From NCBI GenBank assembly GCA_934526015.1, contig CAKSZY010000013.1, positions 1-64,000 on the forward strand: DNA of 64,000 nucleotides. Direction: 5' to 3'. A program made the position numbers and the translations under genes. The DNA is from an uncultured Dokdonella sp. (GTDB lineage: Bacteria > Pseudomonadota > Gammaproteobacteria > Xanthomonadales > Rhodanobacteraceae). The notes below the pieces were generated by a model. That model did no database searches and was not told the DNA's origin. It saw only the letters and a list, made by a program, of their open reading frames with translations. Below, piece by piece: positions 39,689 through 44,174 of the stretch (positions within the stretch are counted from its first letter, which is position 1; every line of letters starts with the position of its first letter).

Positions 39689-40558
<870 letters not shown>

Positions 40559-40587
40559 CGTCGGTCTCCTCATTGACAAGGGGGATG

Positions 40588-40614
40588 CTAGCACTCAAGT
40601 AGTGAGAGTGCTAA
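40588..40614. promoter_or_regulatory. CIRCE element (HrcA operator) upstream of rpoH
   Basis: Read on the rpoH coding strand: TTAGCACTC, a 9-base spacer, then GAGTGCTAG. The consensus is TTAGCACTC-N9-GAGTGCTAA, so 17 of 18 arm bases match and the spacer is exact. The left arm contains a TTAGCA -35-like box and TAGCAT at the right end could be a -10 with an 18-base spacer, in which case the operator would cover the promoter. CIRCE normally controls groESL and hrcA-grpE-dnaK. Confidence 0.88.
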
Positions 40615-40746
40615 ACGGTCCGCCGAGTTCCCGGAGGTGGCCGGGTCCCCGATAGAAACTGAACCGACGGGTATAGTAGCCCGGAATCCGTCGACGTGCC
40701 GTGACCGGATTGCCGCGGAGGCTTCAACAATCGTGTCGTTCGGCCG

Positions 40747-41463
40747 TCAGGCGGCGTCCGCCGGCAGTTCGCGGCGGGGCGGCAGGCTCCAGTCGATCGG
40801 CGTCTGCCCGGTTTCCGCCAGCCAGGCATTGCAGGCGGAGAAATGCCGGCAGCCGAAGAAGCCGCGATGGGCCGACAGCGGCGAGGGGTGGGGCGCCTTC
40901 AGCACCCGGTGGCGGCGTGGATCGATCAGCCGGCCCTTGGCCTGCGCGTAACTGCCCCAGAGCAGGAACACCAGTTGCTCGCGTTCGCGGTCGAGGGCTT
41001 CGATGCAGGCATCGGTGAAGCCTTCCCAGCCCTTGCCCTGGTGCGAGCCGGCATGGCCTTGCTCGACGGTCAGCACGGCGTTCAGCAGCAGCACGCCCTG
41101 GCGGGCCCACGGCACCAGCCAGCCATGGTCGGGGCGCGCCAGCCCGAGATCGCGCTCGATCTCGCGGAAGATGTTCTCCAGCGACGGCGGCATGGCGACG
41201 TCCGGCAACACCGAGAAGCACAAACCGTGTGCCTGGCCGGGTCCGTGGTAGGGATCCTGGCCGAGGATGACGACCTTCACCTCGTCGAACGGGGTGGTGT
41301 CGAGCGCGGCGAAGATGCGCGAGCCGCGCGGGAAGATGACCTTGCCCTGCTGCTTCTGCTCGCGCAGGAAGGTCGACAGCGCGCGCATCTCCGGGCGTTC
41401 CAGATGGTCGCCGACCTGCCGTCGCCAGGACGGCTCGAGCTTGATCCCGACGGCGCCGCTCAC
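40747..41463 (-). CDS. ung: Uracil-DNA glycosylase
   Basis: Family 1 UDG that removes uracil from DNA. The 238-residue protein has the catalytic water-activating loop [13 protein letters not shown] with Asp70, the uracil-binding LLLNAVLTV, and the DNA-minor-groove loop [12 protein letters not shown] with His193. Its ATG overlaps the TGA of the dual-receiver gene by 4 bp (41460-41463), making it the last gene of a coupled ftsE-ftsX-receiver-ung set. This pairing of a repair enzyme with divisome genes is probably a matter of operon economy. Confidence 0.96.
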
Positions 41464-42305
41464 GCGGTCGTGGCCAGGCGCGCGCGCAGGTGGCGCCCGA
41501 CCCGCAGCTGGAACAGCAGCTTGGTCAGCAACAGGCGCTCGTCGATCGGTTTCTCGACCAGATCGTTGGCGCCGGCATGCAGCAGGGCCGCCTGGTTCTG
41601 CGGGTTGTCGTCGCCGGTCATGACGATCACCGGCAACTGGCCCTTGCCGTAGCCGAGGCGATGGCGCACGCGCTCGAGCAGGTCGCCGCCGGTCAGCTCT
41701 CCCTTGAGGTTGACGTCGGTGAGGACGAGGTCGGCGCCGATGCGGTCCATGGCCTGGGCGGTCTCCAGCATGTCGATCGCCTCCTCGACGGTGACCACGT
41801 GGAGGACGGTCAAGCCGTGTTTCTCGAGCATGCGGCGCGTGGCCAGGGCGACCACCCGGCTGTCCTCGACATAGAGCACTTCGCCCGGCGTCGCCTCGGT
41901 CGGGCGCACGTAGCCGCGGATGAATTCGGCCAGCGCCTGGAAACCGAGCGACTTGTCGAAGTAATCGGTGACATCCTCGCTCAGCGAGCGCTGCACGAGG
42001 CGCTCCTGGACGTCGCCGGAGACGACCACGATCGGCATGTAGGCCTGCGGCGCGCTTTCGCGGATGCGCCGGGCGAGTTCGAGGCCGTCCATGTCGGGCA
42101 GGCGCAGGGCGGTGGTGACGAAGTCGATCGCGCCTTCACCGAGACGGGCGAGTGCCTCGGCACCGCTTTCGCACGGGAAAACGGTGACGCCGGGCAGGCA
42201 GGCGACGAGGGTCTGCTCGATCAGCCGGCGCACCACCTTCGAGCCGTCGACGACGAGCACGCGCGGATGGTCGGACGACAGGTGGCGGCCGAGGGAGACG
42301 CTCAT
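41460..42305 (-). CDS. Dual receiver-domain response regulator, first receiver degenerate
   Basis: A 281-residue protein with two CheY-like receiver domains and no output domain. The second (about residues 142-265) keeps the acidic pair Glu147-Asp148, the phosphoacceptor Asp197 ([10 protein letters not shown]), the Thr switch in VMTGDD and a Lys in VEKPID. The first (about 14-135) has VVDGSK in place of the acidic pair and [11 protein letters not shown], where Ala66 replaces the phosphoacceptor Asp, so it should not be phosphorylated. It overlaps ftsX and ung by 4 bp on either side. No sensor kinase is nearby. It may relay a signal to the divisome or to another histidine kinase; this is inference. 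Confidence 0.88.
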
Positions 42306-43321
42306 GCCGGCTCCACGCCGCGGCGTCCGGCGCGCAGGTGGCCGGTGCTGACCAGCCAGGCGCCGAGCCAGCCGAGCAGCGCACCGCCGGCGAGGACGAC
42401 GGACGCCTCGCGCAGGCCGAAGCCGCGGATGCCGAAGCGGTGGCGGTAGCTCTCGAGCAGCACGTCGGCCGGCGCCGCGACCGACCACTCGACGAGGCCG
42501 ACCGCGAGCAGCGCCAGCGCGCCGCCGAGCAGGCCGTAGGCGGCGCCGGAGTAGAGGAACGGGCGCCGCACGAAGGCGTCGCTGGCTCCGATGAGTTGCA
42601 GCACGGCTATTTCCTCGGCTCTCCCCTGGATGTCCATGCGCACCGTGTTGCCGATGATCAGCAAGGTGGCCACGGCGAGCAGGGCCATCAGCGCGAGCAT
42701 CGCCCGTTCACCGAATCCGAGCAAGGCCGACAGGCGTTTGCGCCAGGCGGCATCGTGCTGGACCATGCCGGTACGCGCATCGCCGCGCACGGCGCCGAGC
42801 AGGGCCGCGTGGCCGTCGGCCGACGGGATCGCCGGCGTGAGCACCAGCACGCTCGGCAGCGGATTGTGCTGCAGCACGTCGAGAGCCTCGCTGAAACCGG
42901 AAAGTTGGCGGAACTCGGCGAGCCCCTGCGCGGGCGTGCGCAGGGACACCTTCTCCACGTCGGCGCGGCTGCCGAGTTCGCCGGCGAAGGCGGCCGCTCC
43001 GGCCGCATCGACCTCGACGGCGAGGAACACGGTGATGTCGCGTGCATCGCGCAGGCCGCCGGACCACTGGCGGGCATTGTCGAGGATGACGTGGAACAGC
43101 AACGGCAGCGCCAGGGCGATGCCGATCACCAGCACCGTCACCAGACTGGCCCACGGCCGTGCGCCGAGTCGCTGGATGCTGGCGGCGGACGCATCGCGGT
43201 GCGCCTGCCGCCAGCCGGAGAGCCGGGCGCCGAACGGGCGCCGTGCGCGCCGCACGCTGACGTTGGCGGCCGGAGCCGGGCGCAGGCGGTTGCCGCCGTT
43301 GCGGTCGGGCTTCGCCATCAT
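42302..43321 (-). CDS. ftsX: Cell division protein FtsX
   Basis: Permease-like partner of FtsE that activates septal murein hydrolases from the inner membrane. The 339-residue protein has a long basic cytoplasmic tail (RRARRPFGARLSGWRQAH), one helix, a large periplasmic domain (residues about 85-195) and three more helices, as in other gammaproteobacterial FtsX proteins. The periplasmic part includes VEKVSLRTPAQGLAEFRQLSGF. It overlaps ftsE (43318-43321) and the receiver gene (42302-42305) by ATGA, so levels of all three should be tied together. Confidence 0.95.
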   Translation of the reverse strand: MMAKPDRNGGNRLRPAPAANVSVRRARRPFGARLSGWRQAHRDASAASIQRLGARPWASLVTVLVIGIALALPLLFHVILDNARQWSGGLRDARDITVFLAVEVDAAGAAAFAGELGSRADVEKVSLRTPAQGLAEFRQLSGFSEALDVLQHNPLPSVLVLTPAIPSADGHAALLGAVRGDARTGMVQHDAAWRKRLSALLGFGERAMLALMALLAVATLLIIGNTVRMDIQGRAEEIAVLQLIGASDAFVRRPFLYSGAAYGLLGGALALLAVGLVEWSVAAPADVLLESYRHRFGIRGFGLREASVVLAGGALLGWLGAWLVSTGHLRAGRRGVEPA

Positions 43322-43992
43322 GCCGCCTGCGGCCGGAAGTCGTCGATCAGGCGGCCATGGTCGAGCACCAGCACGCGCTTGCCCATGTGGCGGATCAGGT
43401 GCAGGTCGTGGCTGGCGACGATGACCGTGGTGCCGACCTGCTGGAACTCGGCGAACAGGCGCATGACCTCGACCGAAAGCTGCGGATCGAGATTGCCGGT
43501 CGGCTCGTCGGCGATGATCAGCGGCGGCTTGCCGACGATCGCGCGGGCGATGCCGACGCGCTGCTGTTCGCCGGTCGACAGGGTCACCGGCAGCGAACCC
43601 TCGCGCGCGAGCAGGCCGACCTTGTCGAGCGCGGCGCGGGCGCGCTTCGCCGTTTCCTCGCGGCCGGCGCCGGCGATGCGCAGCGGCAGGGCGACGTTGT
43701 CGAACACGTTGCGGTCCATCAGCAGGCGATGATTCTGGAACACCATGCCGATGTCGCGGCGCACGCCCGGGATCGAGCGCGTGCGCACGCGCGCGAGCGG
43801 CAGGCCGTTGACGACGATCTCGCCGCGCGAGGGCCGCTCGATCAGTCCGAGCAGCTTCAGCAGGGTGCTCTTGCCGGCGCCGGAATGGCCGGTCACGAAC
43901 ACCATCTCGCCGGCTTCGACGTCGAAACTGAGCCCGCTGAGGGCTTCATGGCCTTCGGCGTAGCGCTTGCTGACCTGATCGAAGTGGATCAT
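43318..43992 (-). CDS. ftsE: Cell division ATP-binding protein FtsE
   Basis: ABC-type ATPase that drives FtsX. The 224-residue protein has Walker A GHSGAGKST (residues 35-43), a Q-loop in FQNHRLL, the signature LSTGEQQR, Walker B LIIADEPTGNLD and the switch His in ASHDLHL. I chose the ATG at 43992 because it gives the normal N-terminus MIHFDQVSKRY; upstream in-frame codons have no coding character. It is the first gene of the ftsE-ftsX-receiver-ung set. Confidence 0.96.
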   Translation of the reverse strand: MIHFDQVSKRYAEGHEALSGLSFDVEAGEMVFVTGHSGAGKSTLLKLLGLIERPSRGEIVVNGLPLARVRTRSIPGVRRDIGMVFQNHRLLMDRNVFDNVALPLRIAGAGREETAKRARAALDKVGLLAREGSLPVTLSTGEQQRVGIARAIVGKPPLIIADEPTGNLDPQLSVEVMRLFAEFQQVGTTVIVASHDLHLIRHMGKRVLVLDHGRLIDDFRPQAA

Positions 43993-44051
43993 CGCTGCGG
44001 AGACGGGGAAGGCCGGGAGTGGACTGGATGGATTGTAGGGTGCGCGATGGA

Positions 44052-44174
44052 GCCTTGTACCCGTTCCGGATTTCGATGCGTCGGTTTCGCCATTGCCTGG
44101 CATGAAAGGCGAAAGCGAAGGACCCGGGCAAGCCTTGAGCCCGTTCCGGATGTCGACGCCTCTATTTCACCATT
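44052..44174. repeat. Pair of 43-base imperfect direct repeats at the end of gspF
   Basis: 44052-44094 and 44132-44174 match at 35 of 43 positions (shared core CCCGTTCCGGAT, shared TTTC-C-CATT end). The second copy contains the gspF stop codon and its last codons; the first lies in the gap before ftsE. This looks like an old tandem duplication of the gspF tail. Confidence 0.6.

Follow-up and report, generated by a model that had tools for sequence, protein, structure and literature searches.

A predicted HrcA operator overlying a probable sigma-E promoter of rpoH in a Dokdonella genome and in other Proteobacteria

Accounts of heat-shock control usually assign it either to a repressor, HrcA, or to a sigma factor, sigma-32. 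The closest described system to the one presented here is that of Geobacter sulfurreducens, in which a CIRCE element, a perfect dyad, lies 51 bases before the start of rpoH (PMC545781, Table 8; 2004). The operator, its spacer and the kind of target are the same there as at our locus. In the sections of that paper that deal with the element, rpoH is among the predicted targets of a single deltaproteobacterium of those studied and is not linked to a sigma-E promoter; the arrangement described here, by contrast, occurs repeatedly among beta- and gammaproteobacteria, has a probable sigma-E promoter beneath the dyad, and is accompanied by hrcA-grpE loci that are mostly without CIRCE. A second line of related work concerns the promoter. 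In Escherichia coli (P3) and at fam, the rpoH of Bordetella bronchiseptica, an envelope-stress sigma factor reads rpoH from a proximal GGAACTT / TC-type promoter, as appears to be the case here, and B. bronchiseptica SigE transcribes fam in vitro (PMC3490749). Unlike here, HrcA goes unmentioned in the parts of that account that treat fam (PMC3490749). The E. coli control genome gave no hrcA match.

CIRCE before rpoH (in G. sulfurreducens) and transcription of rpoH by sigma-E are already known; the overlap of the dyad with a probable sigma-E promoter is new. No paper joining HrcA and sigma-E at rpoH was found in the open-licence PMC literature, which is weak evidence of absence. The 2003 survey of HrcA and sigma-32 regulons in beta-, gamma- and epsilonproteobacteria by Permina and Gelfand may already list rpoH, and RegPrecise could likewise list rpoH under HrcA. 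At the rpoH locus described here, HrcA, sigma-32 and sigma-E appear to converge on a single promoter in a wide range of Proteobacteria.

The dyad in the window and at rpoH of relatives

The window, by which we mean the whole 64 kb stretch of DNA that was analyzed, carries the following features at the start of rpoH.

39689..40558 (stop included), minus strand: rpoH, RNA polymerase sigma-32, 289 aa, matching TIGR02392
40566..40571, minus strand: GAGGAG, likely ribosome binding site, judged from the sequence
40588..40614, minus strand: CIRCE dyad, predicted HrcA operator, with one arm mismatch and 0 such matches expected; kept at rpoH in relatives and tracking hrcA

A pattern scan of the whole window for TTAGCACTC-N9-GAGTGCTAA with up to three mismatches returned a single match, at 40588-40614, which carries one mismatch (17 of 18 arm bases, with the 9-base spacer) and reads TTAGCACTC-TCACTACTT-GAGTGCTAG on the coding (minus) strand. 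The same pattern at the same limit gave 0 matches in 100 dinucleotide-preserving shuffles of the window. The dyad lies upstream of rpoH on the coding strand, 29 bases from the ATG, and the gene product scores 409 bits against TIGR02392 (cut-off 323). Both the near-perfect CIRCE with exact spacer and its position before rpoH, which the original prediction had read from the letters, were borne out by these searches, and the dyad is very probably an HrcA operator. The longest open frame for rpoH begins at a GTG at 40594 (minus strand), within the CIRCE; the ATG at 40558, together with its ribosome site, appears to fit the homologues better. Past rpoH, priA lies on the opposite strand, and upstream of rpoH its own strand carries genes for a uracil-DNA glycosylase and for a protein with two receiver domains, then ftsX and a gene for an ABC ATPase, presumed to be ftsE. 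ftsX adjoins rpoH in E. coli; in the window, the glycosylase and two-receiver-domain genes (40747-44103, minus strand) separate the two.

A contig scan with an 868-nt rpoH query, which starts at 40559 and is one base off frame, yielded 80 loci, and the sample is defined by the reach of that query. Two loci were uncounted (L026, which has no upstream sequence, and L075, which has no rpoH match). A dyad with at most six mismatches within 300 bases of the start was present at rpoH in 64 of the 78 readable loci, which by their record titles include Lysobacterales, Burkholderiales, Rhodocyclales and other beta- and gammaproteobacteria. The dyad is lacking in 14 loci: L023, L025 and L045; six from Aeromonas, Dickeya, Leclercia, Pantoea, Ferrimonas and Tolumonas (L033, L050, L057, L059, L065, L070); L078, from Anaeromyxobacter; and four remote, alphaproteobacterial matches (L076, L077, L079, L080). 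L025, from a genome with hrcA, has a diverged dyad, ACGACAGTC-N9-GACTGTTAG, in position before rpoH.

The original prediction had staked itself on the dyad being kept in other Lysobacterales and in close relatives. It is found in both: Lysobacterales are among the 64 loci, and the four RpoH rows nearest the window on the RpoH tree (L134, L002, L133, L135) all come from genomes that have hrcA and a dyad at rpoH. CIRCE at rpoH had not been regarded as a general arrangement; it is in fact common in hrcA-bearing beta- and gammaproteobacteria.

Co-occurrence of the dyad with hrcA

hrcA was detected in 59 and undetected in 62 of the 121 genomes that make up an order sample around G009. The sequence upstream of rpoH was compared in 111 of these genomes; the ten uncounted genomes had either an unread upstream region (G026, G046, G125, G130) or no clear whole rpoH (G037, G051, G066, G093, G099, G135). 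Among hrcA-bearing genomes, the rpoH dyad was present in 56 of 57, with 54 dyads within five mismatches at a 9-base spacer (49 at no more than two mismatches, 4 at three or four, and 1, in G079, at five) and 2 at an 8-base spacer. The remaining genome, G138, has a shortened, altered rpoH dyad only and was scored as absent. The two dyads with the 8-base instead of the 9-base spacer, L189 (G052) and L190 (G034), have perfect CIRCE arms. Where hrcA was undetected, the dyad was found in 0 of 54 genomes at up to five mismatches and an 8- or 9-base spacer, the best match being at six mismatches in two of them.

The named collection, for which six named loci were left out of the hrcA search, comprises 50 genomes, one of which (L023) also figures in the order sample, as G114. 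All 40 dyad-bearing genomes have hrcA above the cut-off (one match being partial and one split), while eight of the ten dyad-less genomes have no hrcA above the cut-off (two of them with sub-threshold scraps) and two (L025, L078) have hrcA. In 18 further dyad-bearing genomes, hrcA was found in 17. The eighteenth, G013, yielded neither hrcA nor grpE, and because grpE is also undetected, an assembly gap may hide hrcA there.

The presence of the dyad agrees with that of hrcA in 134 of the 138 rows placed with the window on the RpoH tree; the four rows against the rule are L152 (G138), L021 (G013), L025 and L078. The tree requires 8 changes for hrcA and 10 for the dyad, although the number of separate losses is uncertain because support is weak for many of its inner branches (48 of the 135 are drawn open). 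Well-supported branches provide five independent contrasts, about four for and one against (sign test p 0.375), a number too small for the formal test to reach significance. Whole-genome scans for CIRCE at up to two mismatches returned none in any of eight genomes without hrcA and 2 or 3 matches in each of six genomes with it, against a background, from the reversed control pattern, of 0 to 2 matches per genome. That rpoH is under HrcA control, as originally predicted, is in this comparative sense a well-supported reading, given the 134 agreeing rows and the lack of any dyad in the 54 genomes without detected hrcA.

G031, which falls among Xanthomonas- and Stenotrophomonas-like rows on the tree, appears to capture a loss of the repressor. 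It has grpE (locus L315), and hrcA was not found by the family search or in the 1.4 kb upstream of grpE; in G127, the two genes are adjacent, with hrcA immediately 5' of grpE. The rpoH of G031 (L159) is preceded by a damaged dyad, TGGTCAGTC-N10-GACTGCTAA, and hrcA was likely lost recently.

A probable sigma-E promoter beneath the dyad

The pattern GGAACTT / TCnnA is that of sigma-E promoters. Two candidate boxes of this kind are found at the window's dyad.

40625..40631, minus strand: probable sigma-E -35 box GGAACTC, 6 of 7 to GGAACTT, in the offset class of -14 to -17
40603..40607, minus strand: probable sigma-E -10 box TCTCA, 17 bases from the -35 and weaker than the TCnAA of many relatives

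TCTCA straddles the boundary between arm and spacer: its first two bases close the first CIRCE arm, and its other three belong to the spacer. The window's boxes, GGAACTC and TCTCA at 17-base spacing, are present but not strong, and TCTCA is not the commonest form. Across 120 sites, GGAACTT was matched in at least six of seven bases at a fixed offset from the dyad in 81 (61 at -16, 13 at -17 and 7 at -14). The same test on 500 shuffles of these sites averaged 0.53 matches and never exceeded 4, and a reverse-complement control gave 15 matches, of which the 7 at -14 presumably reflect overlap with GGAACTTCC. With near-copies removed, 105 non-redundant sites were left, and 70 of them had a GGAACTT-like box in the same offset class as the window's: 55 of the 71 Lysobacterales and order-sample sites and 15 of the 34 from the other named loci. 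TCnnA (or TCnA) followed 15-17 bases beyond the -35 in 50 of the 55 and 13 of the 15 boxed sites. No -35 at 6 of 7 was found in the two offset ranges scanned for 31 of the 105 dyads.

Because TC is CIRCE sequence anyway, the independent part of the -10 evidence lies in the spacer. The third spacer base is A in 86 of 118 rpoH dyads versus 0 of 17 groE dyads, and a sigma-E -35 box was found at 0 of the 17 groE dyads. In several cases with the -35 at -14, TCnnA or ACTAA is likewise displaced by two bases into the spacer, and at L031, L036, L042 and L047 the promoter is shifted such that TCnnA lies just 5' of the dyad, outside the arms. GGAACTT-N15-17-TCnnA is also kept before rpoH in 39 of the 54 genomes without hrcA (shuffles, 0.85); such genomes, which retain the promoter after natural loss of hrcA, make it possible to trace how a regulatory layer is shed. 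RpoE scored above its cut-off in all 16 related genomes searched, and hrcA is present in the nearest relatives, G127, G049, G002 and G071; from such relatives, we infer that the window's own genome has both hrcA and rpoE. Taken from its sequence, the dyad probably overlies a sigma-E promoter of rpoH.

We consider it likely that an HrcA operator overlies the core of the sigma-E (RpoE, ECF02) promoter of rpoH and that transcription is gated by HrcA. HrcA bound there would mask the -10 element together with the start region and so keep sigma-E polymerase off. When HrcA is inactive, through heat or chaperonin overload, and sigma-E is free, rpoH would be transcribed; sigma-32 would then raise the chaperones, and restored GroE would re-arm HrcA and shut the gate at rpoH. 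The dependence of HrcA on GroE comes from work in Bacillus subtilis, and by analogy GroE would feed back on HrcA at rpoH, just as HrcA would presumably bind and repress at the dyad and sigma-E would presumably be used in this organism. The logic of rpoH is probably sigma-E AND NOT HrcA, which is a sharp, testable prediction. It had originally been proposed that loss of HrcA activity would raise RpoH directly. The placement of HrcA above rpoH is retained here, but loss of HrcA alone may not suffice, since the underlying promoter seems to depend on sigma-E. If the gated promoter operates as proposed, cytoplasmic and envelope signals would meet at one box, with a heat repressor sitting on an envelope-stress -10.

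In the portion of a Xylella nitrogen-starvation time course considered here, hrcA had increased four-fold at 2 h and groESL decreased, while rpoH showed a two-fold increase at 8 and 12 h (PMC3224663). These data fit badly, as simple repression would not predict such a pattern, for which sigma-E or another promoter could be the cause. We lean slightly towards the broader view that control of rpoH by an HrcA-gated sigma-E promoter is the norm, and an old one, among hrcA-bearing beta- and gammaproteobacteria, and that the E. coli sigma-E promoter of rpoH would be a remnant after loss of hrcA and the operator.

The most credible alternative, though one we regard as unlikely, is that the HrcA operator acts on another promoter, such as a housekeeping sigma-70 promoter, or roadblocks transcripts started upstream, with the sigma-E box minor or unused. 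The 31 dyads without a recognisable -35, the imperfect boxes of the window, and a TGTAC-TAT-like element 41-65 bases 5' of the dyad in some relatives would all be accommodated. A consensus search, however, returned no sigma-70-type promoter in 40540-40800 of the window, and the sigma-E box has an offset fixed far above shuffles, persists after loss of hrcA and is absent at groE dyads.

In favour of an RNA hairpin in the rpoH leader (a thermometer or stability element) instead of a DNA operator, the inverted repeat is perfect and lies near the ribosome site, and among 945 pair cells at 105 sites G-U-compatible mismatched pairs on the coding strand outnumber the mirror A-C pairs, 27 to 13. C-C, G-G and other non-pairing cells nevertheless amount to 30 of the 945, and if the sigma-E start is used, the first arm would be mostly untranscribed. 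An RNA element would also not track hrcA, whereas the dyad is absent in all 54 rpoH-bearing genomes without detected hrcA. The types of arm pair and what becomes of the dyad in genomes lacking hrcA led us to reject the hairpin as main cause, and we hold it very improbable. More improbable still is a regulator other than HrcA acting on a CIRCE-like rpoH dyad, at least for the TTAGCAGTC arms of Lysobacteraceae. There the rpoH dyads are often symmetric, TTAGCAGTC-N9-GACTGCTAA, while groE dyads are mixed or retain GCACTC; yet genomes with the TTAGCAGTC type have hrcA, dyads that combine one arm of each type are found at rpoH as well as at groE, and the sites vanish together with hrcA. A chance inverted repeat has nothing in its favour and stands last: none is expected in the window, and the dyad is kept before rpoH in 64 of 78 readable loci. 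An HrcA operator over a probable sigma-E promoter is the reading we prefer.

Other CIRCE sites, operator variants and an upstream repeat

A slightly degenerate CIRCE pattern with one mismatch allowed was used in a regulon scan of 18 genomes, in which 16 rpoH sites and 19 others were found; the rpoH sites of G004 and G006 exceed the mismatch limit. Seventeen of the 19 lead into groES (16) or groEL (1), and the remaining two (G014, G017) lie in the hrcA loci L099 and L101. No groE site was found in G005 or G009 at one mismatch to the degenerate pattern. At up to three mismatches, CIRCE is present in 2 of 47 hrcA loci, again L099 and L101, neither from the order sample, and CIRCE at hrcA-grpE was rejected as a general feature. 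Of the companion sites anticipated originally, the one at groESL is what most non-rpoH sites represent, and the one at hrcA or grpE is largely missing.

Lysobacteraceae-like rpoH dyads (e.g. L011, L014, L018, L028, L160, L165) carry the same change in both arms, TTAGCAGTC / GACTGCTAA, a symmetric shift of the operator. In HrcA, a change from VGSR to VGSQ accompanies the TTAGCAGTC form in most Lysobacteraceae, and NIL partly does so too, in a comparison whose helix pattern was unmatched in 12 of the 47 hrcA loci. Strict tracking of the TTAGCAGTC form by this residue was rejected, as R accompanies the form in G012 and G021, the residue is K in G079, and Q is paired with the standard form in G073.

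Finally, a second inverted repeat, TGTAC-N6-GTACA, lies 41-65 bases 5' of the rpoH dyad in L004, L013, L019, L137, L143, L146, L154, L155 and L157. It is possibly the site of another regulator or a promoter element. Among the 71 non-redundant Lysobacterales and order-sample sites, the repeat is exact in 9 and occurs as TGTAC-N6-GTTCA in 9 more.
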